The translations under genes and the position numbers were made by a program. The notes under the pieces were generated by a model. It saw only the letters and a list, made by a program, of their open reading frames with translations. It was not told the DNA's origin and made no database searches. Positions 8,896 through 63,671 of a DNA stretch of 64,000 nucleotides are shown here, piece by piece (positions within the stretch are counted from its first letter, which is position 1; every line of letters starts with the position of its first letter). Source of the DNA: Actinacidiphila bryophytorum (GTDB taxonomy: Bacteria > Actinomycetota > Actinomycetes > Streptomycetales > Streptomycetaceae); contig NZ_JAFFIX010000018.1 in assembly GCF_016916835.1 (NCBI RefSeq), positions 1 to 64,000 of the forward strand. The letters run 5' to 3'.

Positions 8896-9310
8896 CTAGG
8901 CGAAGGCGAACACCGGGCCGGTGGCGGCGCGCAGGACGCAGGGGTTGGCGAACTTCTTCCGCCAGTCGACGGGACGACCGCGGAATTCACCCCGGGCGGT
9001 GACGGTGATCGGAGCGTACGGCTCCCGGCAGACGGCCGGCGGTGATCGGAGCGTACGGCTCCCGGCAGACGGCCGGTTGCCCCAGGAGGGCGTCGAAGTC
9101 GCCGTCGGCGGCGGACAGTGCGGTGCACGCCGGGAGAGGGAGGGGGTGCGTACCGTGCGCGATCCCGTCGCAGGACAGGGTCGCGCTGCGTGTGCCTGCC
9201 GTCAGGGCAAGGCCTTGGGCCTGGCCCTGGCCTGGGCTCGGTGGCGCCGCCGCCAGGCTCACTGCTGCGAGCAGGGCCGCGGTTGCGGCGGCCAGCACCA
9301 TGTCTCTCAC
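8896..9310 (-). pseudogene. Subtilisin-inhibitor-like (SSI) protein gene broken by a tandem duplication
   Basis: From GTG 9310 (or ATG 9301) the frame encodes a signal peptide and then SSI-family features: TLSCDGIAHGTHP-like spacing, PACTALSAADGDFDALL and AVCREPYAPIT. The frame then ends prematurely at 8987. A 37-bp exact tandem duplication (9004-9040 repeated from 9041) causes a shift. Reading through with one copy removed restores VTARGEFRGRPVDWR and then FANPCVLRAATGPVFAFA, the classical SSI C-terminus with its last conserved Cys, ending at 8896. Intact SSI proteins are secreted serine-protease inhibitors of about 110 aa. This copy would be inactive unless the duplication is a sequencing error. 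Confidence 0.85.
9004..9076. repeat. 37-bp exact tandem duplication inside the SSI-like gene
   Basis: Copy one spans 9004-9040 and copy two 9041-9076, identical over 36 bp. The unit is not a multiple of three and shifts the reading frame of the inhibitor gene. Confidence 0.93.
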
Positions 9311-9804
9311 AGCGCCCACTCCACGCCTGTCCAGGCCACTCCGGGGGTACGCCACGCCCCCCATACCCCCGAAGGGGGTACGCCCCCGCTGCCCGCCCCT
9401 TGCGGTGAGCTTCCGCCTTTCCCCCGGCGGGGGGGCAGGTGATTTCCACTTGCTGTGGGGCTCGCACCTTTCGGTGCGTGGTTGATCGGGCGCGCAGTTC
9501 CCCGCGCCCCTGGGTGGGTGCCACTTGCTGTGGCGTTGCTTTCTTCCATGCTCCTCGGGCTGGGCGCGCAGTTCCCCGCGCCCCCAAAAAACGCTCACCC
9601 TCTTGCGCAGAGGGCGCCGCATGAAAGCGTCGCCTCTGCGGGAGAGGGCAACCATCAGGGGCGCGGGGAACTGCGCGGCCAGCACGAACGGGCGGGAAGA
9701 AAGCGACGCCACAGCAGGTGGCAATCACCTAGGCACCCCCGGCGGGGGAAAGCGGACTGTCCCGCGCAAGGGGCGGGACTTCCGGGGTCGGGGCCGCTAC
9801 GGGC
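9311..9804. other. Non-coding gap upstream of the SSI-like pseudogene
   Basis: This gap holds the palindromic element listed separately and short GC hairpins such as TACCCCC facing GGGGGTA near 9370-9390. I see no supported gene. Confidence 0.6.
9446..9723. repeat. Dispersed palindromic intergenic element, copy 1
   Basis: Outer boxes related to TGCCACTTGCTGTGGCGTTGC occur at 9519-9539 and inverted at about 9704-9723, with a partial box at 9446-9458. Inner boxes CGCGCAGTTCCCCGCGCCCC occur at 9491-9510 and 9565-9584 and inverted at 9658-9677. The centre holds AACGCTCACCCT and GAGGGCGCC. The whole forms a long imperfect palindrome with no coding capacity. Confidence 0.8.
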
Positions 9805-10896
9805 TCAGGTCGGAGGGGCTAGGCGTTCGCCGGCGAAGAGGTGGAGGGCCGGGATGAGGGTGGCGGGGAAGGGGGTCAAAGGGGTGAGGGGGCAGGCGAG
9901 GTGGCCTGCGACGAGGTGGCGGGGGGTGGACGGGGGGAGGTCCGTGCCCGGGAGGGGCCAGACGGTGAGCCAGGTGTGGGCGTCGGGCGCCCCGGGGTGC
10001 GGTCCGACGGTGAGCGCGGCGACTTCCGGCCAGCTGAAGCGGACTTCGGGGCCGCCCGGGCGTGCCCGGGCGGAGAGCCCTTCGGGTCCGACGGCGAGCC
10101 GTCGCGGCCTGCGCCACCTGGCGTAGAGCCGCACCGTGCAGAACCACGCACCCGCGGCGACCGCGAAGTCCGGCCCGAGAAGCCCCAGCGGCACGGGTGC
10201 GCGCTGCCCGAGGAATGCGCCGGCGACGGGCTCGGTGCAGGCGAGTGCGAGGACGAGGCAGAGGACCCAGGGCAGGGCGCGCCCGGGCACGGTGAAGACC
10301 TGCCCGGGCCGGTGCCCGCCTTCCGGCCCTGAGACGGTGACGGGCACGGGCTCGCGCACGGACCGCGGCGCCGTCTCGAAGTGGGCGCCGCCGTACTCGG
10401 CGAGGGCGGCGCTGAGCGCGCCGAGCGGCTGGTCGAGGTCGCCCGTGTCGAGCAGGGTGTAGCGGACCCGGTGGTCCGCGAGGACGCCGAGCGCTTCGGC
10501 GAACCATGCGTCGTAGCGCCGGTCGGCGGGACGCGGCAGCCGCACCCCTGCCGCGGTCCACAGCACGAGCCGCGGTTTGGAGGGTTCGGAGTCCTCGCCG
10601 GTGTCGCGGTATTCGAGGGCGACGGCGTCGACCTGTTCCCAGCTCACTTCTGCGTCGTGCAGGGTCAGCCCGAAGGCGTCGATGCGCAGCCGGAAGGGTT
10701 TGCGGGCCCGCCGCAGGTCGGCGGTGCCGCGCAGGGCGGCGAGCAAGGCGAACGCGGCGGCGGCGAGCAGCCCTGCGGGGCTGCCCGGCATCCCGTGCAC
10801 GGCCAGCCATGCCACGAGCCCCGCGACGATCGCGCCGGATGCGCAGAGCATTCCGGCACCGCGCCGGCGCAGCCGCCCGCTGATGGTGAACTCCAC
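9805..10896 (-). CDS. Membrane protein with PH-like cytoplasmic parts, unknown function
   Basis: This 363-aa protein has two N-terminal hydrophobic segments (about residues 15-50) and a second pair near the middle (LPWVLCLVLALACTEPVAGAFL and LLGPDFAVAAGAWFCTVRLYA). Soluble stretches around FRLRIDAFGLTLHDAEVSWEQVDAVAL and RFSWPEVAALTVGP resemble the beta-rich membrane-associated PH-like domains of actinobacteria. The GTG at 10896 is preceded by an AAGGGGGTGGGG box; a longer frame to 11049 lacks one. No enzyme motif is seen. The family resemblance is weak. Confidence 0.7.
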   Translation of the reverse strand: MEFTISGRLRRRGAGMLCASGAIVAGLVAWLAVHGMPGSPAGLLAAAAFALLAALRGTADLRRARKPFRLRIDAFGLTLHDAEVSWEQVDAVALEYRDTGEDSEPSKPRLVLWTAAGVRLPRPADRRYDAWFAEALGVLADHRVRYTLLDTGDLDQPLGALSAALAEYGGAHFETAPRSVREPVPVTVSGPEGGHRPGQVFTVPGRALPWVLCLVLALACTEPVAGAFLGQRAPVPLGLLGPDFAVAAGAWFCTVRLYARWRRPRRLAVGPEGLSARARPGGPEVRFSWPEVAALTVGPHPGAPDAHTWLTVWPLPGTDLPPSTPRHLVAGHLACPLTPLTPFPATLIPALHLFAGERLAPPT

Positions 10897-11058
10897 TGCC
10901 CCACCCCCTTGTTGACGCCCGGGTTCCAGGATGCGGCGCGGCTGCCCGCCGCGGTGGGTGCCGTGCGCGGTCCGGTGCGACGGCGGGACCGGTGTGGGGC
11001 GAATCGGTGAAGAAGTGAACGGCGGGCGTCCGGCTCGTGCGCGGAGCATTGACCACCG

Positions 11059-11072
11059 ACTGACCAGTCAGT
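11059..11072. promoter_or_regulatory. TetR-like operator upstream of the SGNH hydrolase
   Basis: ACTGAC and GTCAGT form perfect 6-bp arms around CA, the form of many TetR-family half-sites. It lies about 90 bp before the hydrolase start. The regulator is unknown; the closest TetR gene is at 14120. Confidence 0.45.
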
Positions 11073-11161
11073 AACTTCTGCGGAGCAGCACCGACTTCAT
11101 CCGATCTCGGCTGATACCCGCACCAATCCCCCACGTGTTTGGCAGTGTCGAAGGAGACAGC

Positions 11162-12052
11162 ATGTCGATGCGCATCCTCGCCCGGGTAGCGGCGGCCGCC
11201 CTGGCCGCCGGCACACTGGCCGTACTCGGCCTGAGCGCCCCCACCGCCCAGGCCGCACCCCAGACCACAGGCACGTCGCAGACGTACGTGGCGATGGGCG
11301 ACAGCTACAGCGCGGGCTCCGGCATCCTGCCGCTCGACCCGGCGGCCTCGCTGCTGTGCGTGCGGTCCACCGCGAACTACCCGCACGTGCTGGCCGCCCG
11401 CACGGGCATGGCGCTGACCGACGTCACCTGCGGCGGCGCCCAGACCAAGGACTACGCCGGGTCCCAGTACCCGGGCGTGGCACCGCAGTCGGACGCGCTG
11501 GGCGCGAACACCGGCCTGGTCACGATGACCATCGGCGGCAACGACAACAGCACCTTCATCGACGCGATCCTCGCGTGCGGCTCCGCGGGAGTGGCGACCC
11601 TCGGCTTCGGGCACCCCTGCCAGAGCCTGTACGGCAGCACGTTCACCGACCAGGTGGACACCGGCACCTACCAGGCGGTGAAGTCGGCGCTCGCGGCCGT
11701 ACGCGCCAAGGCGCCGAACGCCCGGGTGGCGATCCTGGGCTACCCGTGGATCGTGCCGGCCGCGGCCGTGCCCGGCTGCTTCGCCAGGCTGCCGATCGCC
11801 TCGGGCGACGTGCCGTACCTGCGCGACCTGCAGACCCACCTGAACGCGGCGGTCAAGCGCGCGGCCGCCGAGACCGGCGCGACCTACGTGGACGTCTCCG
11901 GGGTGTCCGACGGGCACGACGCCTGCCAGCCGGCCGGCACCCGGTGGATCGAGCCGATCCTGTTCGGCACCAACTTCGTGCCCGTGCACCCCAACGCGCT
12001 GGGCGAGTCCCGGCTCGCCGACCGCACCGCCGCCGTCCTCGGCCTCGGCTGA
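11162..12052 (+). CDS. Secreted SGNH/GDSL-family hydrolase
   Basis: This 296-aa exported esterase/lipase-like enzyme has a signal peptide of about 31 residues ending TAQA-AP, block I GDSYSAGSG around residue 46 (nucleophile Ser), block III GGND around 125 and the catalytic His in VHPNALGE near the C-terminus. Several cysteines (LLCV, VTCGGA, LACG, HPCQ, PGCF, DACQ) probably form disulfides, as in Streptomyces lipases of this fold. The ATG at 11162 follows a GGAGAC box; an upstream in-frame ATG at 11135 would spoil the signal peptide. The substrate is unknown. Confidence 0.9.
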   Translation: MSMRILARVAAAALAAGTLAVLGLSAPTAQAAPQTTGTSQTYVAMGDSYSAGSGILPLDPAASLLCVRSTANYPHVLAARTGMALTDVTCGGAQTKDYAGSQYPGVAPQSDALGANTGLVTMTIGGNDNSTFIDAILACGSAGVATLGFGHPCQSLYGSTFTDQVDTGTYQAVKSALAAVRAKAPNARVAILGYPWIVPAAAVPGCFARLPIASGDVPYLRDLQTHLNAAVKRAAAETGATYVDVSGVSDGHDACQPAGTRWIEPILFGTNFVPVHPNALGESRLADRTAAVLGLG

Positions 12053-12086
12053 GCCGGGGCACACCCGAGAGCCCCCCACAGGAAAA

Positions 12087-12122
12087 GGAGCCGCCCCGGG
12101 GTCACGACCCCGGGGCGGCTCC
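12087..12122. terminator. Strong bidirectional terminator between SGNH hydrolase and ilvD
   Basis: Seventeen-bp perfect complementary arms (12087-12103 and 12106-12122) lie in the gap between convergent genes. The stem is very GC-rich. Confidence 0.85.
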
Positions 12123-12145
12123 CGTCAGCCGAGCGAAGTGGCCGG

Positions 12146-13999
12146 TCAGCCTTCGAGCTTGGAGATGTCCCGCACCGCACCGCGGTCCGCGCTGGTCGCC
12201 ATGGCCGCGTACGCCCGCAGCGACGCGGAGACCTTGCGCTCGCGGTCGCGCGGGGCGTACACACCGCCGAGCGCCTCCCGGCGGGCCGCCAACTCCTCGT
12301 CGGAGACCAGCAGTTCCATGGACCGCGCCGGGATGTCGATCCGGATGCGGTCGCCGTCCTCGACCAGCGCGATGGTGCCGCCGGAGGCCGCCTCGGGCGA
12401 GGCGTGGCCGATGGACAGGCCCGAAGTGCCGCCGGAGAAGCGGCCGTCGGTGATCAGCGCGCAGGACTTCCCCAGGCCCCGGCCCTTGAGGTACGAGGTC
12501 GGGTAGAGCATCTCCTGCATGCCGGGGCCGCCGCGCGGGCCCTCGTAGCGGATCACGATGACGTCGCCGGGGGTGATCTCCTTGCGGAGGATCTTCTCGA
12601 CGGCCTCCTCCTGCGACTCGCACACCACCGCGGGTCCCTCGAAGGTCCAGATCGACTCGTCGACGCCCGCGGTCTTCACCACGGCGCCGTCCACGGCGAG
12701 GTTGCCGCGCAGCACCGCGAGGCCGCCGTCCTTGGAGTAGGCGTGCTCGACGTCGCGGATGCAGCCGCCGGCCGCGTCGGTGTCCAGCGTCTCCCACCGC
12801 TCGGACTGGGAGAAGGCCTGGGCGGAGCGCACGCAGCCGGGGGCCGCGTGCCACAGCTCGACGGCCTGCTCCGACGGGGAGCCGCCGCGGACGTCCCAGG
12901 TGTCCAGCCACTCCTTGACCGAGCGCGAGTGGACGGTGTGCACGTCCTCGTTCAGCAGCCCGCCGCGGTACAGCTCGCCGAGGATCGCCGGGATGCCGCC
13001 GGCCCGGTGCACGTCCTCCATGTAGTACGTGCCGCCGGGCGCCACGTTCGGGGCGACCTTGGCCAGGCACGGCACCCGGCGCGAGACCGCGTCGATGTCG
13101 GTCAGGCCGTAGTCCAGCTCGGCCTCCTGGGCGGCGGCCAGCAGGTGCAGGATGGTGTTGGTGGAGCCGCCCATGGCGATGTCCAGGGCCATGGCGTTCT
13201 CGAACGCGGCCCGGGTGGCGATGGCCCGCGGCAGCACGGACGCGTCGTCCTGCTCGTAGTAGCGGCGGGTCAGCTCCACGACGGTGCGGCCCGCGTCCTC
13301 GTAGAGGGCCTTGCGTGCGGTGTGGGTGGCCAGCACCGAGCCGTTGCCGGGCAGGGCCAGGCCCATCGCCTCGGTCAGGCAGTTCATCGAGTTGGCGGTG
13401 AACATCCCGGAACACGACCCGCAGGTCGGGCAGGCGTTCTCCTCGATGCGCAGGATGTCGGCGTCCGAGACGTTCTCGTCGACGGCGTCGGCGATCGCGT
13501 TGATCAGGTCGAGCTTGCGGACCGTGCCGTCGACCAGGGTCGCGCGGCCGGCCTCCATGGGGCCGCCGGAGACGAAGACCGTGGGGATGTTCAGCCGCAG
13601 CGCGGCCATCAGCATGCCCGGGGTGATCTTGTCGCAGTTGGAGATGCAGATCAGCGCGTCGGCGCAGTGCGCCTCGACCATGTACTCGACGGAGTCGGCG
13701 ATCAGGTCGCGGGACGGCAGCGAGTACAGCATGCCGCCGTGGCCCATGGCGATGCCGTCGTCGACCGCGATGGTGTTGAACTCGCGCGGCACCGCGCCGG
13801 CCGCCTTGATCGCCTCGGAGACGATCCTGCCGACCGGCTGGAGGTGGGTGTGGCCGGGTACGAACTCGGTGAAGCTGTTGGCGACCGCGACGATCGGCTT
13901 GCCGATGTCGGCGTTGTCCACGCCGGACGCGCGCATCAGCGCACGCGCGCCTGCCATGTTGCGGCCGTGGGTGACCGTACGTGACCTCAGCTCGGGCAC
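12146..13999 (-). CDS. ilvD: Dihydroxy-acid dehydratase
   Basis: This 617-aa enzyme dehydrates dihydroxy acids in valine, leucine and isoleucine synthesis and binds an iron-sulfur cluster. The cluster and Mg region shows CISNCDK and [17 protein letters not shown]. The GTG at 13999 ([16 protein letters not shown]) matches the usual family N-terminus and sits 8 nt after an AAGGGAG box. A GTG at 14008 lies directly against that box and is less likely. It stands alone, convergent with the SGNH hydrolase. Confidence 0.95.
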
Positions 14000-14119
14000 G
14001 GTGTCCACTCCCTTGGTTTCACTCAGCTCGTACGACGGCCGCGGCGCGCGACCGTGCCGTCGAGGGTACGCCCGTCGCCCAGGATCCGGACACCTCGTCC
14101 GGATGACGGAACCCTTGCG

Positions 14120-55647: not shown

Positions 55648-56103
55648 ATGGCCCTGTGGGACCGTTTCAAAGAGTCCGCGAGCAACATGCAGAACCAGCT
55701 CAACGCGAAGAAGAACGACCTCAAGAGCGGCGCCTTCCGGGACGCCAGCATGGCGATGTGCGCGCTGGTGTCGGCCGCCGACGGCACCATCGACCCGGCG
55801 GAGCGGCAGCGGGTCGCCGCGCTGATCGGCACCAACGAGGTGCTGCAGAACTTCCCGGCGCTGGACCTGCAGCGCCGCTTCGAGGACTACCTGTCCAAGC
55901 TCACCGCCGACTTCGCCTTCGGCAAGGTGGCGATCCTGCAGGAGATCGCCAAGGTGCAGAAGAAGCCGACCGAGGCGCGTGCGGTGATCCAGATCGGCAT
56001 CGTCATCGGCGGTGCCGACGGCGACTTCGACAAGACCGAGCAGGCCGTGGTGCGCGAGGCGTGCTACGCGGTGGGGCTCAACCCGCAGGAGTTCGACCTC
56101 TGA
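55648..56103 (+). CDS. TerB-family tellurite-resistance-like protein
   Basis: This 151-aa helical protein contains AMCALVSAADGTIDPAERQRVAALI and GIVIGGADGDFDKTEQAVVREACYAVGL, repeated acidic helix-loop segments typical of TerB. It probably binds metal ions and works with TerD in stress resistance. The ATG at 55648 follows GCGAGGAGACCCC. Confidence 0.9.
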   Translation: MALWDRFKESASNMQNQLNAKKNDLKSGAFRDASMAMCALVSAADGTIDPAERQRVAALIGTNEVLQNFPALDLQRRFEDYLSKLTADFAFGKVAILQEIAKVQKKPTEARAVIQIGIVIGGADGDFDKTEQAVVREACYAVGLNPQEFDL

Positions 56104-56378
56104 CCGCCCGCCGGCCGCCCGGCCGGCCCGCACCGGCGGCAGGCATGCCCGGGACGCATCCGCGCGTCCCGGGCATCGGCATATGCCCAGAAAACGGCGC
56201 AGCCGCGGTCACAGGCCGGTCGCGCCTTGCGGATACCCGGTACGTTCGGCTCCGTTGGCGGGTAATACTTGCGTGACACTCTGTGGCAGGCACAGATACC
56301 TGAGGTTTCGGGGAACCTCGGGCGCGGGGGCGCCCTCCGGTATCCGCACGGCCCCGGATCACCAAGGGAGGAAGGTAC
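56104..56378. other. Terminator and promoter gap before the LuxR pair
   Basis: A 13-bp stem (56145-56157 with 56164-56176) is a likely terminator of the terB-like gene. Further inverted repeats, CTGTG/CACAG at 56281-56295 and GAGGTT/AACCTC near 56303-56320, precede the first LuxR-type gene. Confidence 0.6.
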
Positions 56379-57437
56379 ATGCTTCCCGTACCGAGTGAGG
56401 ACGCGTGCCCGAAAGGGTCGGCGGGCACGTCGGGCGGAGTCAGCACCCAGCGGGACGAGGACGCGGCGCTCGCCCTGTACGAGATGCTGCGCACCAGCGG
56501 CGGGGTCCCCGAGGACGGCCGCTACCCCGATCTCGACACCGGCGACCCGCACGGCCGCGGCTGGCGCCGGCTGCGCGAACTGGGCCTGGTCCAGGTGCGC
56601 GACGGTGTCGCCGAGGCGGTCGACCCCGACGCGGCGCTGGCCAGGGCCATGGACGACTACCAGGCCAACGCGGCGGAGCAGCTGCGCAGCGGGGTACGGT
56701 TGCAGCGCGTGACCGAGGCGCTGCTGTCGGTCTACCGGCCGTCGGTGCAGCGCGAGATCAGCCAGGTCGCGGTGGAGTTCATCACCGACCCGCGGCGCAA
56801 GCAGCGCACCAGGCTCGACCTGTCGGACGCCGCCCGCGAGTCGTGCAGCTCGATGCACCCCGGGCCGATGCCGCCGATCGAGGTGCTGGAGGCCTCCCTC
56901 GAACACGACCGCACGATCATCGCCCGCGGGGTGCGCAGCCGGGCGATCTACCCGATGTCCTGCCTGCACTCCCCCAAGTACGCCCGCTACCTGCACGACC
57001 TGGCCGACGCCGGGGTGGAGCTGCGGCTCGTCGACCACGCGCCCTTCGACATGCTCACCTTCGACGAGAACGCCGCGGTGCTCGCGGCCTTCCCCGACCG
57101 GCCGAGCGACGCGGTCATCGTCATCAGGGGCGCCGCGCTGATGCTCTCCTTCCAGGCGGTCTACGAGGACTGCTGGCTGCGCGGCCTGACCCTGGCGCGG
57201 GCGTCGGCGACCAGCGCGGACGACAGCGAGATCACCGCACAGGAGCGGGTGATCATCCGGCTGATGGCCTCCGGGCTGAGCGACGACCAGATCGCCCGCA
57301 AACTGGGGGTGCACCGGCGTACGGTCCAGCGGGCCATCTCCAAGCTGATGGAGCGGCTGAACGCGAGCAGCCGCTTCGAGGCCGGGCTGAAACTCGCGGG
57401 CGACGCGGAGTTCGCGAAGACCTTCGTGGTGCAGTGA
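56379..57437 (+). CDS. LuxR-type regulator, tandem copy A
   Basis: This 352-aa protein has an N-terminal winged-helix-like domain (EDAALALYEMLRTSGGV, RRLRELGLVQVRDG), a middle domain with MHPGPMPPIEVLEASLEHDRTIIARGVRSRAIYP in parts, a TrmB/PLD-like sensor pattern, and a C-terminal LuxR helix-turn-helix (ITAQERVIIRLMASGLSDDQIARKLGVHRRTVQRA in parts). The ATG at 56379 follows AAGGGAGGAAGG. The next gene is a paralogue that overlaps or nearly abuts it. The ligand and targets are unknown. Confidence 0.85.
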   Translation: MLPVPSEDACPKGSAGTSGGVSTQRDEDAALALYEMLRTSGGVPEDGRYPDLDTGDPHGRGWRRLRELGLVQVRDGVAEAVDPDAALARAMDDYQANAAEQLRSGVRLQRVTEALLSVYRPSVQREISQVAVEFITDPRRKQRTRLDLSDAARESCSSMHPGPMPPIEVLEASLEHDRTIIARGVRSRAIYPMSCLHSPKYARYLHDLADAGVELRLVDHAPFDMLTFDENAAVLAAFPDRPSDAVIVIRGAALMLSFQAVYEDCWLRGLTLARASATSADDSEITAQERVIIRLMASGLSDDQIARKLGVHRRTVQRAISKLMERLNASSRFEAGLKLAGDAEFAKTFVVQ

Positions 57438-57448
57438 AGGAGGCGGCA

Positions 57449-58471
57449 ATGGTGGTTGCCGACGCGGCCGGCAGGGACGAGGACGCCGCACTCGCCCTCT
57501 ACCGGGAGTTGCGCAAGAACGGCGAGGCGTCCGTGGAGGAGCTGCGGGTGTCCGCGGGCCTGGACGTGGCGCGGGCCGCGGCCGGCTGGGCCTGGCTGGA
57601 ACGGCTCGGCCTGGTGCGGGCCAAGGACGGCGGCCCCGCCAAACCCGTGGAGCCGCACGCGGCGATCCTCGGCGCGATGGAGTCGTACAGGACGGCGGCG
57701 ACCGAGCACGAGCGCAGCGCCCGCGAGATGCAGCGGGTGCTGGACTCGCTGATGACGGTCTACGAGCCCGCGGTGGCGCAGGACGACGCGGTGGGCGTCG
57801 CGGTGCGCTTCCTGGGCGGCGACGCGCACAAGAAGCAGATGATGATCGACCTCAACGAGTCGATGCGCATCAGCTGCGACTCGCTGCACCCCGGGCCGAT
57901 GCCGCCGATGGAGATCCTCAACTCGTCCCTGGAAAGGGACCGGACGATGCTCGCGCGAGGCGTGCGGGTGCGGGCCATCTACCCGCGCTCGATCCTGCAC
58001 ACCCCCCGGTACCTGCGCTACCTGCAGGACATGACGGCGCTGGGCGCCGAGGTGCGGCTGATCGACCACGCTCCCTACGACCTGCTGGTCTTCGACCGGC
58101 ACACCGCGCTGCTCGCGGCCGACCCGGAGGACCCGAGCCACTCGCTGGCGGTCGTGGTCGGGGCGGTCCTGGTCAAGTCCTACATCGCGCTCTTCGAGGA
58201 CTTCTGGCTGCGGGCCGCCAGGTTCGACGCCCCCCAGCCGACGGCAGGCGGCCACCTGCCAGAGGTGACCGCGCAGGAGCGGGCGGTCATCCGGCTGATG
58301 GCCGACGGGCTGAGCGACGACCAGATCGCCCGCAAGCTCAGCGTCCACCGGCGTACGGTCCAGCGGGCCATCTCCAAGCTGATGGAGCGGCTGGACGCGA
58401 CCAGCCGCTTCGAGGCGGGCCTGAAACTGGCGTGCGACGCGGAGTTCGCGGCGCTGCTGTCCGGCGCGTGA
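57449..58471 (+). CDS. LuxR-type regulator, tandem copy B
   Basis: This 340-aa paralogue of copy A has matching domains: winged helix (EDAALALYRELRKNGEASVEEL), middle (LHPGPMPPMEILNSSLERDRTMLARGVRVRAIYP in parts) and C-terminal helix-turn-helix (VTAQERAVIRLMADGLSDDQIARKLSVHRR in parts). The ATG at 57449 follows AAGGAGG; a GTG at 57434 overlaps the stop of copy A (GTGA). The two form a coupled operon that may act as a heterodimer or sense two related ligands. Confidence 0.85.
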   Translation: MVVADAAGRDEDAALALYRELRKNGEASVEELRVSAGLDVARAAAGWAWLERLGLVRAKDGGPAKPVEPHAAILGAMESYRTAATEHERSAREMQRVLDSLMTVYEPAVAQDDAVGVAVRFLGGDAHKKQMMIDLNESMRISCDSLHPGPMPPMEILNSSLERDRTMLARGVRVRAIYPRSILHTPRYLRYLQDMTALGAEVRLIDHAPYDLLVFDRHTALLAADPEDPSHSLAVVVGAVLVKSYIALFEDFWLRAARFDAPQPTAGGHLPEVTAQERAVIRLMADGLSDDQIARKLSVHRRTVQRAISKLMERLDATSRFEAGLKLACDAEFAALLSGA

Positions 58472-58553
58472 GACCGCCGCCTGGCCGGTGGCGCGGCCCG
58501 GTCCGGCCGGTGTGGTGACCTGGCCGGTGGCGTGGTGCGCCGGCCGGTGACGC

Positions 58554-59342
58554 TCAGCGTTCCGTGAAGCGCGCCCGGTCCGCGGCCGGGAGGTGGTCGG
58601 TCAGCCGGCGCAGCAGCGCCGCGATCGGCCCCGGCATCCCGGGAAAGGTCGAGATCAGCAGGTGCACCAGGGCGAAGCCGAGTGCCGACGACTGGTCCGG
58701 GCCGGTGCGCAGCCACGCCGAGACCGCGAGCCGCACCACCCGCTCGGCGTCGGGCGAGCCCAGGCCGTGCAGCCGGGCCGCGGCCACCGTGTGGAAGTGC
58801 GTGGCCGCCTCCCAGTCCCCGTCCAGGGCCGCGTCCTGCGCCGCCCGCATGACCGCGGCCGCCCCCTCGGGGCAGGCGCGGGCCGCGCACACCTCGTGCG
58901 GCATGCCCGCCGGGTCGCCCCAGCAGGGGTCGGGCGGGCACCTGCCGGGCACCGGCAGCAGAGCGCCGTCCACCGGGCTCGCGGTGCCGTCCTCGGCGAC
59001 CAGGCAGGTCTCGACGCGGCCGTCGGCGTGGCCGACGGCGACCCGGGTGGGCCGGCCGTTCTCGCGGGCCTGCCAGGCGGCGGCGGACCAGGCCGGGTGG
59101 GTGTCGTCGGTGAGGTCGCGGGCCTGCGACATGACGGTGCCCCAGGTGTGCACGGTGCCGCCGGGCAGCACCGCGATGCTCACCGGGGTGACGGCGCCCC
59201 GGTCCGCGCCGGGGCGCGGCGCGAACCAGTCGCCCGCCCAGTACGTGGTCGCCGGCGGGATGGCGGGCAGCTCGACCGGGACCAGCCACTCCGCCCCGGT
59301 GCCGTCCCTGCCGGGTAAGGCGCTCGCGTGCCGCCCGGCCAT
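58554..59342 (-). CDS. Unknown two-part protein coupled to a decarboxylase-like gene
   Basis: This 262-aa protein has no recognised family. Residues 1-140 look beta-rich (EWLVPVELPAIPPATTYWAGDWFAPRP, VSIAVLPGGTVHTWGTV), then a cysteine cluster (PGRCPPDPCWGDPAG, HEVCAARACPEG), then a helical C-terminus (WEAATHFHTVAAARLHGLG, RVVRLAVSAWLRTG). The ATG at 59342 comes one base after the stop of the decarboxylase-like gene (TGAGATG), so translation is coupled and the proteins probably act together. Confidence 0.75.
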   Translation of the reverse strand: MAGRHASALPGRDGTGAEWLVPVELPAIPPATTYWAGDWFAPRPGADRGAVTPVSIAVLPGGTVHTWGTVMSQARDLTDDTHPAWSAAAWQARENGRPTRVAVGHADGRVETCLVAEDGTASPVDGALLPVPGRCPPDPCWGDPAGMPHEVCAARACPEGAAAVMRAAQDAALDGDWEAATHFHTVAAARLHGLGSPDAERVVRLAVSAWLRTGPDQSSALGFALVHLLISTFPGMPGPIAALLRRLTDHLPAADRARFTER

Positions 59343-59343
59343 C

Positions 59344-60621
59344 TCAGCCGTCCCGCTGGGAAGCGGCCACGGCGGCGGTACGGCTCCCGCCGGGCACAGG
59401 ACGGTGCGAAGGGCCGGCCGGCGGCGCGGTCCCCGATCCCAGGTCGCGGCACAGGGCGTCGACCGTGGCACGGGTCAGCGGCGGCAGCACGGTGAGCCGG
59501 GCGTGCGGGCCGTCGGTGTCCAGCCGCCAGCGGGTGCACACCGCGGCGGCCGGGCGGGGGAAGCGCAGGGTCAGCCCGCGCCCGGCGCGGGTGGGCCGGT
59601 AGCCGGCCTCCGCGAGGTGGTCGGCGGCGTAGCCGGCGGTGTCGTAGCACTCGTGCACCAGGGCGCGCAGCCCGTCGTAGCCGCGGTCCCGCAGCGCCGC
59701 CCACAGCAGGGCGACGGCCAGCGGGTTGGGGGTGGTGCCGCGGCCCCTGGAGGCCTTGGTGCGGGCGGTGCCGACCAGGACCACCCCGCACGGCACCGGG
59801 AGGCCCAGCAGTCGGTGTGCGGTCAGCGACAGGCTGTCGGCGCCGTCCCGCAGGTCCCACGCCAGCGGGAGCGGGGAGAAGGGGGCGAGCAGTCCGGTGT
59901 CGCCGGCGTCGACGTGGACGTGGACGGGTCCCGCGGGGGCGGCCGCCGCCCGTATCGCCGCCAGGTCGTCGTCCGCGCCCTCGGCCGCGGCGCCCGCGAG
60001 GGTGGCCAGGACGACGGCGCCGCCCGGTCTTTCCGCGGTCAGCAGCCGCAGCGCCTCGGTGTCCATGGTCCCGTCGGCGCCGTGGGGGACCTCGACGACG
60101 TCCATGCCGAGCTGGTCGGCATGGCAGCGGGCGGCGTGGTGCACGGCGGCCGACACGTACAAGGGGGCGCCGGGCAGCGCGTCGCGGCCGGCCCGCAGCC
60201 CGACGAGCAGCCCCTCGGCGCCGCCCGCGGTGACATACCCCTGGGTGTGCCGGCGGTCGCCGAGTGCCAGGTCGGTGCAGAAGTCGGCGACGGCCTGCTC
60301 GAAGGCGAGCACGGCGCCGCCCGCGGTGACCGGGTCCGGGGCGGCAGGTGAGACGGCGTCGAGGTCGATGTCCGCGAGTGCGGCCAGCATCTCGGCGTAG
60401 TCGCCGTGGTAGGAGGCGGGGAAGTCGTCGAGCAGCTCCGTCGCGTGCATCTCCGCGGACCGCAGCGCGGCCACGAGTCCGGCGAGCTGCCGGCGGGTGT
60501 CGGCCGGGTCGGCGGCGGCGAACCCGATGAGCTGGCGCGGTTCTGGCGCGACGGCGAATCCCGCGGCGCCGCCGGGCGGCGGCGCCTGTACGGGCAGTGG
60601 GGCGAACGGCAGGTACGCCAT
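59344..60621 (-). CDS. PLP-decarboxylase-like pseudoenzyme (histidine-decarboxylase fold)
   Basis: This 425-aa protein has the group II/fold-type-I decarboxylase pattern: YHGDYAEMLAALADIDL, TQGYVTAGGAEGLLVGL, LYVSAAVHHAARCHADQLG (stacking His161), HVHVDAGDTG (Asp238) and SLTAHRLLGLPVPCGVV. In active enzymes the last motif is SGHKxxGxPxPCG with the Schiff-base Lys; here residue 270 is Arg (codon at 59812-59814). Thr residues that hold the PLP phosphate are also Ala. It therefore may not bind PLP covalently. ATG 60621 follows GGAGG; it is coupled to an unknown partner. Confidence 0.82.
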   Translation of the reverse strand: MAYLPFAPLPVQAPPPGGAAGFAVAPEPRQLIGFAAADPADTRRQLAGLVAALRSAEMHATELLDDFPASYHGDYAEMLAALADIDLDAVSPAAPDPVTAGGAVLAFEQAVADFCTDLALGDRRHTQGYVTAGGAEGLLVGLRAGRDALPGAPLYVSAAVHHAARCHADQLGMDVVEVPHGADGTMDTEALRLLTAERPGGAVVLATLAGAAAEGADDDLAAIRAAAAPAGPVHVHVDAGDTGLLAPFSPLPLAWDLRDGADSLSLTAHRLLGLPVPCGVVLVGTARTKASRGRGTTPNPLAVALLWAALRDRGYDGLRALVHECYDTAGYAADHLAEAGYRPTRAGRGLTLRFPRPAAAVCTRWRLDTDGPHARLTVLPPLTRATVDALCRDLGSGTAPPAGPSHRPVPGGSRTAAVAASQRDG

Positions 60622-61254
60622 GACGACCTCCGGAAACTTCAGCGCACGAGGTGGCGGGGAGTCGGCGGGCCAGGCCGACCCCCCGCTCACCGCCGAGGGC
60701 TCCCCCCCGGAACCGGGCGGAGCGGGCCGGTGGCCCTCGGCGGCCCCGGTCGCGGCGACTCGGGGGGCCGCGACCGGGAGCAGGGTGGTGTCCGGCACTC
60801 CCCCGGCGATGTTTTCGCCGCGGTCAGTGCCGACGCGAGAATTGGTACCTGACGCCAGGTGCCTCCCGCTACGAACCCAAAGGTGCGTAATCCGGTCCGC
60901 GAGCTGGTGTTCCGTCCTGCGTTCCCGCCCCTAGCTGGCACTTCGCAGGGGGGCCGGGGCCGTTGTCCAAAATGGGACACGTACCAATGTGGACAGACCC
61001 GTTTGCGGACGGTGGCGCAAGTACGCCAATTCGGCCCCGGTGGCGCATACTTCCTGGTCGGTGGCCCGGTGATGCGCCGCGAGCAGCCGCCGCTGCTTTC
61101 CCCATTGCTCAAACCACCCTCAAATCCGCAGGTCAAACGGGGGACATGGGCATTGGTTGACAGTCATCGGGGCAAGCCAAGACCATCGAATGGCCAGTAT
61201 CGGAACGGTGACGCACGCATGCATCACCTCGGCCGGATCTCGGGGGAGATGCCC
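60622..61254. other. Long gap between the decarboxylase-like gene and the XRE gene
   Basis: The gap holds no convincing gene. It contains an inverted pair GGTACCTG/CAGGTGCC (60844-60863) and repeated TGTCC/GGACA motifs near 60962-60998. These may be regulator sites for the flanking genes. Confidence 0.5.
60844..60863. promoter_or_regulatory. Candidate operator upstream of the decarboxylase-like gene
   Basis: GGTACCTG and CAGGTGCC are inverted arms with one mismatch and a 4-bp centre, located about 220 bp before the start. Confidence 0.35.
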
Positions 61255-62076
61255 ATGGCACCGCACCACGGGGATTCCCCGCCACTGATCCACGGCTTCC
61301 TCCGCCAGGCCCGCAAGCAGCACAGCGATGCCGCCGACCGCACCTCCCCCCTGGCGGCGGGAAAGCGCCGCAGCGGGCTGAGCCAGCAGGACGTGGCCCA
61401 GTACATGGGCGTGTCGACCCGGCTGTACCAGGACTGGGAGGGCGGCGTCCGGCCGATCCCGCAGCACCGGCTGGACTCGCTCGCCGAAGCGCTCGGCCTC
61501 GACTCCGCCCGCCGCGACGAGCTGTGGTTCGTCGCCAGCGGGGGCTTCCCGCCGCGCGGCCCCAGCCGGCCCGACCCCGAGGCCGTCAGCGGCTGGACGA
61601 GCTACCTGCGCGCCCTGCCCGTCCCCTCCCTCGCCGTCGACGCCGGCTGGCGCATCGAGGAGAGCAACACCGCCTGGCAGCGGCTCTTCCTGTCCGCCGG
61701 CGAGCCCGAGCCGGCCAACCTGCTGCGGTTCGTGCTGTTCAACCCCTACGCCCGCCGGCTGTGCGGCGAATGGGAGGACGGCTGGGCCACCTCGTACCTG
61801 CGGCAGCTGCGCCTTGAGGCGGAGACCACCCGCAGCGCGGAGCTGCGCCGCATCATCGACGAGCTGCAGGACCACCCGGAACTGGCCGAGCTGTGGCGGG
61901 CGGTGGACCGCTCCAGCCGCATCACCCTGCACAACGACGGCCAGGTCCGCATCATCGTCCCCCCCGTCGGCGGCCACCCCCAGCACGTCCGCACCCTCGT
62001 CTCCACCCCGGCCCACGACCCCCGCCGCCGCATGGTGACCTTCCTCCCGACCCAGGCCACCGCCCACGCCGCCTAG
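61255..62076 (+). CDS. XRE-family regulator with MmyB-like domain
   Basis: This 273-aa regulator has an N-terminal helix-turn-helix (GLSQQDVAQYMGVSTRLYQDWEGG, residues about 38-61) and a MmyB-like C-terminal domain (LPVPSLAVDAGWRIEESNTAWQRLF, LLRFVLFNPYARRL). The ATG at 61255 is 6 nt after GGGGGAG; ATG 61249 and 61219 are in-frame alternatives. No SDR is next door, unlike the copy at 4728, so its target is unclear. Confidence 0.85.
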   Translation: MAPHHGDSPPLIHGFLRQARKQHSDAADRTSPLAAGKRRSGLSQQDVAQYMGVSTRLYQDWEGGVRPIPQHRLDSLAEALGLDSARRDELWFVASGGFPPRGPSRPDPEAVSGWTSYLRALPVPSLAVDAGWRIEESNTAWQRLFLSAGEPEPANLLRFVLFNPYARRLCGEWEDGWATSYLRQLRLEAETTRSAELRRIIDELQDHPELAELWRAVDRSSRITLHNDGQVRIIVPPVGGHPQHVRTLVSTPAHDPRRRMVTFLPTQATAHAA

Positions 62077-62328
62077 GGCGGAGCCGGTCCCGTAACCTCA
62101 CGCCCTGACGCCCCGGGGGCGTTCGCGCCACGGCCTGTTGCGCTTCACCGCGCCGCCGCCTGCCGGTATCCGCAGGGAATTCCGCTGATTCCGGTAAATG
62201 AGCCGGGAAATGCCGCCTGCCCGTGCCCGTGCGCCTCCGGCCGAGGAACCGAGAAAGTGCTCCATGCGGCGGAAACCGCCGGCCGTAGGCTGAAGACGTG
62301 GGGGACGAGACCGCCAGAAGCTGAGCGG

Positions 62329-63671
62329 TATGGGCTTTGAGCGGTGGGTCCCGGCCAGTCGCCTGACACTCGTCATGGAACGCCGTGACGGCATGCTCGT
62401 GGATTTGGCGTGCCGCGCCCAGAGCGTCCTGAAGGCCGGAGTGGTCGCCGTCTACCTTCCGGTGCCGGCCGAAGCGATGCTGGGCACCGCGGTTGCCGCT
62501 GTCGAAAGCCTGGGCATCGGTCCACTGGAACGGCTGCCCCTGGCGGAGGACGTCTACGCCACGGTCCGCGCGTACACGACCGGCAAGACCGCCGTCGCCC
62601 ACTCGATCGACATCCTCGGCAACCACCCGGAATTCGCCACCGTCGCGCCCTATCCCCTCACCGTCGCCTCCGCGCCACTGGACGCGCCAGGCAGACGGTT
62701 CGGCGCAGTCAGCGCCTTCTGGCCCGGGATCTTCCGCGAGATCGGCCCGGCCGAGATCGAGCGCGGGGGCGTCGGTGGTGATGGGCCAACTGCTCAGCGC
62801 CGGGCGCGCCTACGGCACCGACGGGCTGGACCCCGGAGAACTGCTGCGCAGTACCAACCGGCTGCTCGTCGGCCTCAACACCGACCTGTTCGCCACCTGC
62901 TGCTGCGCACGGCTGGACCCCGAGACGGGGCTCATGCGCGTGGCGACGGCAGGACATCCGCCACCGTTGATCAGAGGCGCCGCCGGCGACTATGCCGATC
63001 TCCGCCTCGACGTGGGGCCGCCGCTCGGGGTCGACGCCGACTACGGCTACACCGACGTCGGTGTCCCGCTGGAGCCGGGGGCGCTCCTGGCCTTCTACAC
63101 CGACGGGTTCCTCGGCGGCGGTACCGGGCGCGAGCTGGACCCCGACGTCATCGACACCGCCGTCGCCACCTCTCACGGGCAGCTGGAGGAGATCGGCGAC
63201 CAGGTCGTGGAGCGTACGACCGGCGCCCCCTCGACCGCGGACGATGCCGCCCTGCTGCTTCTGCGCTACGAGGAGCCCGCCGCGACGGCGCGCCGCTACA
63301 TGCGCCGTCTGGAGATACCCCGCCGCGATCTGCTCGGCGTGGAGCGCGCACGCCATTTCCTGCACGGGTGGCTCACCGCCTGGAGTCTCGGCACGGTCGA
63401 CGACGAGGCCCAGCTCCTGCTGTCGGAGATCGTGACAAATGCCCTCGTCCACGCAGACAGCGACGTCGACCTGCGCCTGCGCCGCTACCCCGGCCACCTG
63501 CGGGTGAGGTCCGCGACAGCGAACCCCCACCCCGCCATCAACGTCGGGACACCCGGCGAGGACCAGGCCGAGAGCGGACGCGGGATGATGATCGTGTCGG
63601 CCCTCGCGTCCGCCTGGGGCAACTCGCCGAGCGGCCGCGGCAAGGCCGTCTGGTTCGAACTCCCGCTGTGA
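62329..63671 (+). pseudogene. Broken GAF-PP2C(SpoIIE)-ATPase signalling gene
   Basis: From ATG 62329 one frame encodes a GAF-like N-terminus (MGFERWVPASRLTLVMERRDG, then GVVAVYLPVPAEAMLGTAVAAV) up to about 62765. From there a different frame encodes the second half of a SpoIIE-type PP2C phosphatase (SVVMGQLLSAGRAYGTDGLDP, LVGLNTDLFATCCCARLDP, GALLAFYTDGFL) and an anti-sigma-like ATPase (LLLSEIVTNALVHADSDVDLR), ending at 63671. The metal-binding first half of the phosphatase (usual GGDWYD and GDVxGHG motifs) is missing, so an internal deletion plus frameshift is likely. It is probably non-functional. Confidence 0.72.

Follow-up and report, generated by a model that had tools for sequence, protein, structure and literature searches.

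Gene organisation of the locus

The window, that is the whole stretch of 64,000 nucleotides analysed here, comes from the 8.05 Mb genome of Actinacidiphila bryophytorum (contig NZ_JAFFIX010000018.1, positions 1 to 64,000). Two consecutive genes on its reverse strand, P0001 and P0002, are flanked by regulator genes on the forward strand (Table 1). The P0001 frame has no internal stop over its 425 aa, and GGAGG, which resembles a ribosome-binding site, lies 5' of its ATG. Homology to the catalytic domain of PLP-dependent decarboxylases is indicated by PF00282 (31.3 bits, cut-off 27), and PRK02769, the NCBI histidine-decarboxylase model, matches with E 1.2e-40 and 139 bits, well below its equivalog cut-off of 305. 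Solved histidine and serine decarboxylases were also matched, the best being PDB 7erv (E 1.2e-25). Residues 106-394 are homologous to the structures of the HDC and plant serine/alanine decarboxylase branch of group II (PRK02769; PDB 7eru/7erv, 8jg7, 8jij/8jik).

Among 35 Actinacidiphila genomes, ten match P0001 at E <= 1e-3; eight are clear orthologues at 62-100% identity, and the two remaining matches are distant (44% and 38%). In a scan of named genomes, relatives turned up in Actinacidiphila cocklensis (83%) and A. paucisporea (80%). Across 394 genomes of the family, the 12 matches at E <= 1e-60 consist of the same eight orthologues and four proteins at 40-45% identity. In the tree, the eight orthologues form one clade with 100/100 support and a long stem.

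P0002 lies just downstream of P0001 in all eight orthologue loci, as expected of the coupled partner proposed in the first-pass annotation, with a gap of one base in six of them and of 249 and 298 bases in G005 and G014. By eye, the longer gaps (L038 and L039) share a G+C-rich inverted repeat near the end of P0001. In the family, P0002 was found in ten of 394 genomes, namely the eight with a P0001 orthologue, G003, and G054 with a frameshifted copy; of three matches in 345 class genomes, P0002 itself was credited and the others, with E about 1e-3, were not. With the G003 version as query, the whole plasmid collection yielded one record, a Streptomyces plasmid. No annotated decarboxylase lies within 6 kb of this plasmid relative, where a single 39-residue match is at chance level (E 0.007), and none was found on the 14-kb contig of the broken G054 copy, so that pairing with a decarboxylase is not universal for proteins of this type. 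P0002 as a hidden Nudix protein was rejected (profile comparison probability 0.2%), and the best of its matches among solved structures, covering a short segment of a surface protein (E 0.015), was not credited. AlphaFold2 models were poor, with a mean pLDDT of 40.0 for P0001 and two of its orthologues and of 48.7 for P0002 and two of its orthologues.

A 37-bp block between P0001 and the divergent XRE gene is invariant in all eight loci, although the window protein and its orthologues share 62-85% identity. With 3 mismatches allowed, neither a second copy of the block in the window nor a second match to its 21-bp core in the genome was found. The block probably serves the divergent unit as an operator or promoter element, an operator being suggested by its TGTCCA/TGGACA arms. 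No Rfam family reached its gathering score in 56000-63000.

The neighbourhood of the adjacent TerB-like gene was inspected in a further 20 Actinacidiphila genomes (two stretches being short, 3.7 and 7.5 kb), and neither the P0001-P0002 pair nor an XRE orthologue was found there; one of the 20 encodes a protein related to the XRE regulator at 29%, and in 12 a distant relative of LuxR stands beside TerB. Seven further genus genomes without the pair lie outside this comparison. Given its absence from this position in 20 genomes, the XRE-P0001-P0002 unit would most simply have been gained once, in the ancestor of the eight-species clade.

A cluster of MetRS-like, FAD oxidase, MFS and ATP-grasp genes stands beside the XRE gene in four of the eight loci; at L034 it spans 9186-14001, the MFS and ATP-grasp-like labels being given by eye. 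It was rejected as part of the unit because of the distribution of its MetRS-like gene, which is missing from the matches in the window's genome; at E <= 1e-80, G000 and G014 gave no match. The gene lies apart from the pair in G005 and occurs in G008, which has no pair. G004 carries it on a different contig from the pair, but gene and pair are both at contig ends, so that they may adjoin. Further along the window, an open frame at 62330 seems by eye to run into another frame, in which 62775-63671 encode a phosphatase/ATPase-like protein; the stretch 62330-63671 thus has the look of a truncated or frameshifted multi-domain regulator.

Table 1. Coordinates of the features discussed (window positions unless another locus is named)
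Feature	Coordinates	Strand	Basis or remark
LuxR-type HTH regulator 1, convergent, 8/8 loci	56379..57437	(+)	Pfam and orthologue loci
LuxR-type HTH regulator 2, paralogue of regulator 1, 4/8 loci	57449..58471	(+)	orthologue loci
P0002, partner, 262 aa, no Pfam/NCBIfam match, starting 1 base after the P0001 stop	58554..59342	(-)	ORF, family scans, orthologue loci
P0001, predicted pseudo-decarboxylase, 425 aa; fold-type-I PLP protein resembling histidine/serine decarboxylases but lacking the PLP lysine	59344..60621	(-)	translation, profile and structure-database matches
Remnant of the catalytic loop, shortened to 18 residues (283-300), Tyr and Ser-Arg missing	59722..59775	(-)	alignment count
Arg270 codon CGA at the Schiff-base Lys position	59812..59814	(-)	codon read in window and orthologues
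37-bp block, identical in all 8 loci	60963..60999	(-)	locus comparison
XRE-type regulator with MmyB-like ligand-binding domain, divergent, beside the pair in 8/8 loci	61219..62076	(+)	Pfam (scan run on the longer reading frame 60859-62073) and orthologue loci
Nudix gene, L134	8169-8876		box degenerate
Nudix gene, L157	5867-6577		box degenerate
Nudix gene, L162	4122-4829		box degenerate
Nudix gene, L163	1990-2526		box degenerate
Nudix gene, L160	6143-6838		box not degenerate

Loss of catalytic residues in P0001 and its orthologues

Active-site positions were transferred from CsAlaDC to P0001 by reading the alignment to solved structures, and residue roles follow the accessible text of the CsAlaDC/AtSerDC structure paper (PMC11407765), in which Tyr336 of CsAlaDC is essential. 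Residue counts refer to the eight orthologues, five rows of a second lysine-less clade and 24 lysine-bearing rows. Compared with the HDC/SerDC branch, P0001 retains the stacking His, the HxD and the residues around the HK motif, and lacks the Schiff-base Lys, the loop Tyr and the equivalent of Thr247, with a loop about 10 residues shorter.

The first-pass annotation had read Arg in place of the PLP lysine, and the codon confirms it; Arg270 sits within TAHRLLGLPVPCG. At this position the orthologues carry Arg in five cases (window, G004, G024, G030 and G005), His in two (G027 and G010) and Gly in one (G014), so that the Schiff-base Lys expected of an active group II decarboxylase (Lys309 of CsAlaDC) is present in none of the eight. 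The same annotation had named two circumstances that would overturn its reading, and neither holds: a single recent mutation against a background of lysine-bearing homologues is at odds with the absence of Lys throughout the orthologue group, and a sequencing error does not account for the codon, because two or three changes separate AAA/AAG from CGA and the orthologues use other non-Lys codons (CGG, CAC, CGC or GGG). The group thus behaves as the true pseudoenzyme family that had been envisaged; the conservation of Arg across species that had been expected with it was not observed.

The stacking His161 and the pyridine-binding Asp238, said to remain, are indeed present in the window protein, which therefore has both residues that an active decarboxylase needs at these sites. 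The former (His196 of CsAlaDC) is retained in all eight orthologues, and the latter (Asp277) is Asp in six and Glu in two. A replacement of phosphate-binding Thr residues by Ala had also been claimed; it stands for the O3-binding Thr (Thr247 of CsAlaDC), which is Ala in 7/8, and only partly for the phosphate-side Thr170 position, where Ala occurs in 3/8 and Ser in 5/8, Ser being found in 12 of the 24 lysine-bearing rows as well. Lys201 of CsAlaDC is lost in seven orthologues, the remaining row having Arg, as do 7/24 lysine-bearing rows, and the Ala279 position is Gly, Thr or Ala. Kept in 8/8 are the CsAlaDC positions Glu143, Glu171, His196, Asp253, His275, Ser302 and His308; in P0001 numbering, Glu108, Glu136, His161, His236, Ser263, His269 and the LGLPVP motif are identical in all eight.

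A larger change than any of these, which the first-pass annotation had missed, concerns the former catalytic loop. It measures 16-20 residues in the eight orthologues versus 28-29 in the 24 lysine-bearing rows (31 in the partial G266). The position of the loop Tyr (Tyr336), required in active decarboxylases, is a gap in all eight, and in the lysine-bearing rows this alignment column holds Tyr in 19/24 and Ala in the other five. The loop Ser-Arg has become Thr-Pro in 8/8.

The loss of lysine extends beyond the active site. Seven of the eight orthologous proteins (411-454 aa) contain no lysine, so that no internal aldimine to lysine is possible in them, and the window P0001 has a single one, residue 289, inside the loop remnant; the lysine-bearing relatives compared have 1-8 each. 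Low lysine content is common in the GC-rich Actinacidiphila (median 1.45%). Among the 66 proteins with 400 aa or more in the genus stretches, a set without the window P0001, eight have at most one lysine, and seven of those eight are P0001 orthologues. In the window and 15 kb beyond, 3/53 proteins of at least 200 aa are lysine-free, P0002 among them.

Judged by these residues, catalysis would have been lost across the whole orthologue group, as befits a pseudoenzyme family, and it is very probable that P0001 is without decarboxylase activity. Another PLP/PMP chemistry relying on a base other than lysine has to be considered, as in the ColD/E1/SpnQ sugar 3-dehydratases, which are likewise PLP/PMP proteins of the aminotransferase fold with the lysine replaced, in their case by His, and which stay cofactor-dependent according to the accessible text of PMC8987622. 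Such a chemistry would accord with the His found at the position in two orthologues, the invariant stacking His and the Asp kept in six. However, the His of the dehydratases is conserved and catalytic, whereas the P0001 position alternates between Arg, His and Gly, with His in only two of eight, so that no single conserved base is possible; the Asp-to-Glu exchange in 2/8, the loss of the O3-binding Thr in 7/8 and that of the loop residues in 8/8 point the same way. This variation disfavours a ColD-like His mechanism and makes an Arg-based chemistry unlikely, so that Arg as a new catalytic residue was rejected; on the whole, a non-lysine base seems improbable.

Maintenance of the gene

The frame of P0001 is free of stops in all eight orthologues, with a GC3 of 0.94-0.98. 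Pooled pN/pS across the orthologues is 0.60, with low values at residues 106-140 (0.31) and 246-280 (0.28) and high ones at 281-315, the old loop (1.09), 316-350 (0.84) and 386-420 (0.83). P0001 evolves faster than its neighbours, for which pN/pS is 0.50 (P0002), 0.35 (LuxR), 0.28 (XRE) and 0.13 (TerB-like). It could be supposed that a once-useful decarboxylase is decaying by drift in a small clade, and the raised pN/pS, overall and in the three stretches, would agree with this. However, in 60 simulated runs of neutral drift, approximate in that they used a similar distance, a star tree and one assumed base composition, a mean of 1.15 of eight lineages stayed stop-free and all eight were open in 0/60, while pN/pS never fell below 0.99 and GC3 never rose above 0.90; the neutral runs thus never matched the eight open frames, the GC3 or the pN/pS of 0.60. 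Decay is accordingly very improbable, in line with the earlier view that the gene is not a decaying pseudogene. Complete neutrality is excluded and partly relaxed constraint stands: P0001 is maintained by selection, with constraint relaxed along part of its length.

Synonymous divergence is also low in residues 281-315, where pN/pS reaches 1.09. Over residues 281-350 (about 59572-59781), pS is about 0.16 versus 0.21-0.35 in other 35-residue stretches, as if the DNA bore a second constraint there.

Relatives that keep the lysine and a second, independent loss

Wider relatives were sampled from 326 family genomes (21 matched), 384 class genomes (6 matched) and 19 plasmid records. The alignment comprises 41 rows: 22 from genome searches, 16 of the 19 plasmid matches (without H1, H2 and H7) and three from the class-genome search. 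The lysine is present in 26 rows, including the distant homologues at about 38-45% identity, and absent from 15, namely the eight orthologues, a second clade of six rows (a pair of near-duplicates among them) and H19. The tree and the residue counts omit the partial G266 and H13 (both with the lysine), the near-duplicate H17 (without it) and H19. On these rows, lysine loss appears confined to the P0001 clade, one independent clade and the cut-looking H19. The latter, an HDC-like row of 244 aa as annotated that reads GHP (L166 2890-3624, Streptomyces fungicidicus plasmid), could be a cut or decaying gene or a third loss.

The tree leaves several candidates for the nearest lysine-bearing relative of the P0001 clade, with a long-branch warning. 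In the same genus, the decarboxylase of G003 reads SAHKWPGHPLPTG and belongs to a tight run of ATP-grasp ligase, decarboxylase, DUF6875 and a P0002 relative; because of this operon, P0002-type proteins are seen to accompany a lysine-bearing enzyme as well, once. In three plasmid loci the lysine-bearing decarboxylase overlaps a DUF6875 gene by 4 nt. On the Streptomyces plasmid of L156 (4686-6506), an HDC-like decarboxylase is fused to DUF6875 (606 aa) and followed by an isopentenyl-transferase-like gene and egtD, probably a natural-product cluster. Since the accessible text of PMC13307353 presents DUF6875 proteins as heme-binding tryptophan oxidases, these arrangements hint that tryptophan-like amino acids may be the substrates of some lysine-bearing relatives in natural-product clusters. 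Several lysine-bearing relatives have no coupled partner gene.

Within the parent family that it shares with the P0001 clade, the second lysine-less HDC-like clade has likewise lost both the Lys and the loop Tyr. It comprises G216 (locus L134), from the same family of bacteria, and the Streptomyces plasmid loci L157/L171, L162, L163 and L164, with Ser at the lysine position in G216, L157/L171 and L162, Arg in L163 and Pro in L164. A single origin of all lysine loss was rejected: a tree built after removal of the alignment columns for the lysine and the loop has strongly supported branches that make two changes necessary, and the lysine was lost independently in the two clades. The neighbour also differs, being not P0002 but a degenerate Nudix gene in 5/6 loci, placed behind the decarboxylase with a 4-nt overlap in G216, L157, L171 and L162 and in front of it in L163; none was found beside the L164 decarboxylase. 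Coupling of the decarboxylase to a downstream partner therefore recurs in this family, with DUF6875 by 4-nt overlap or fusion and with Nudix by 4-nt overlap.

A live comparison is provided by L160 (strain NBC_01298), whose decarboxylase keeps the lysine and is coupled to a Nudix gene. Relative to the G216 Nudix protein, identity is 61% for L160, 73% for L157 and 74% for L162. The Pfam Nudix model scores 42.6 bits on L160 and 15.8 on G216 (cut-off 21.1), without a match in L157 and L162, although the L157 record names its neighbour a NUDIX hydrolase. The Nudix-box core reads KELQEE in L160 versus RHLKDQ, GQLKDL and GLLQDQ in the others and RQVHDQ in L163, so that the catalytic glutamates look lost outside L160. 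In this second lineage, the decarboxylase and its Nudix neighbour both seem to be catalytically dead, although the comparison has a single pair on its live side.

Proposed function and evolutionary implications

The first-pass annotation had pictured a binding or scaffolding protein, or one with another chemistry, working with its coupled partner; the pseudoenzyme, the argument against simple decay and the conserved adjacent gene have held, and the conservation of Arg has not. P0001 descends from an HDC/SerDC-like group II PLP decarboxylase and has lost the Lys, the loop Tyr with Ser-Arg and nearly all other lysines, most simply before the eight species split, while residues around the old pocket were kept. 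We propose that the protein may dimerise via its old fold and bind P0002, which would be translated from the same mRNA, and that the two together would act by binding, in the form of ligand sensing, sequestration or scaffolding, under the control of the divergent XRE regulator through the 37-bp site. This proposition is supported by the lysine absent in 8/8, the cut loop, the maintained frames, the adjacency of P0002 in 8/8, the G003 operon and the recurrent coupling of such decarboxylases to a downstream gene; it is weakened by the absence of the one-base junction in 2/8, the faster evolution of P0001 than its neighbours, the P0002 relatives that have no decarboxylase nearby, the lysine-bearing relatives that have no coupled gene and the poor AlphaFold models. 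A non-catalytic P0001-P0002 complex working by binding or regulation is, as a whole, the reading that we moderately favour.

P0001 could also act alone as a non-catalytic carrier or sensor of PLP, an amino acid or an amine that signals to the regulators, P0002 being incidental. The largely kept pocket His, Asp and Glu and the regulators flanking the pair in 8/8 are consistent with such a sensor, but P0002 accompanies P0001 in every locus, one base behind it in six, and the loss of the Ser-Arg and Thr contacts should make PLP binding weak. We regard a lone sensor as unlikely, if less so than the other alternatives.

A further role would be that of a helper subunit, the non-catalytic half of a heterodimer with a lysine-bearing paralogue. 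There is a precedent in LCB1/SPTLC1, the serine palmitoyltransferase subunit without the lysine that LCB2 carries (accessible text of PMC3794620), which is, like P0001, a lysine-less homologue of PLP enzymes kept by evolution. LCB1 pairs with its lysine-bearing paralogue, whereas each of the eight P0001 genomes holds exactly one match at E <= 1e-3, with no close paralogue found. Three more PF00282 proteins are encoded in the window's genome; they retain the HK motif but are distant, and tblastn of P0001 at 1e-5 found none of them. The single match per genome and this distance disfavour a helper role, to which we give little credence. The prozyme of trypanosomatid AdoMetDC is, as far as the consulted sources describe it, another catalytically dead decarboxylase relative kept by evolution; it differs from P0001 in fold and cofactor and in working with a live paralogue. 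The cofactor of AdoMetDC is a pyruvoyl group.

Pseudoenzymes, including the lysine-less PLP subunit LCB1, are already known (PMC3794620, accessible text), and P0001 would represent a variant of them not described before in the sources covered. In that literature, where subscription journals are little represented, we found no description of a lysine-less decarboxylase family in Streptomyces or its relatives, nor of the P0001 family, its near-total lysine loss or the partner coupling.

It can be surmised, tentatively and as a possibility rather than a probability, that one actinomycete decarboxylase family was turned, on at least two independent occasions, into a non-catalytic module of two genes, in which the Lys and the loop were lost and a neighbour was kept (a 262-aa protein without a family match or a Nudix protein without its catalytic glutamates), both proteins forming a dedicated sensor or regulatory complex that in one lineage became nearly lysine-free and has its own divergent regulator and a unique 37-bp site. 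Three lysine-less members of the second clade carry the public label 'pyridoxal-dependent decarboxylase', which bears on the annotation of this family. With two independent losses, one of which has a lysine-bearing sister pair (L160), the purpose of a dead decarboxylase becomes directly testable.
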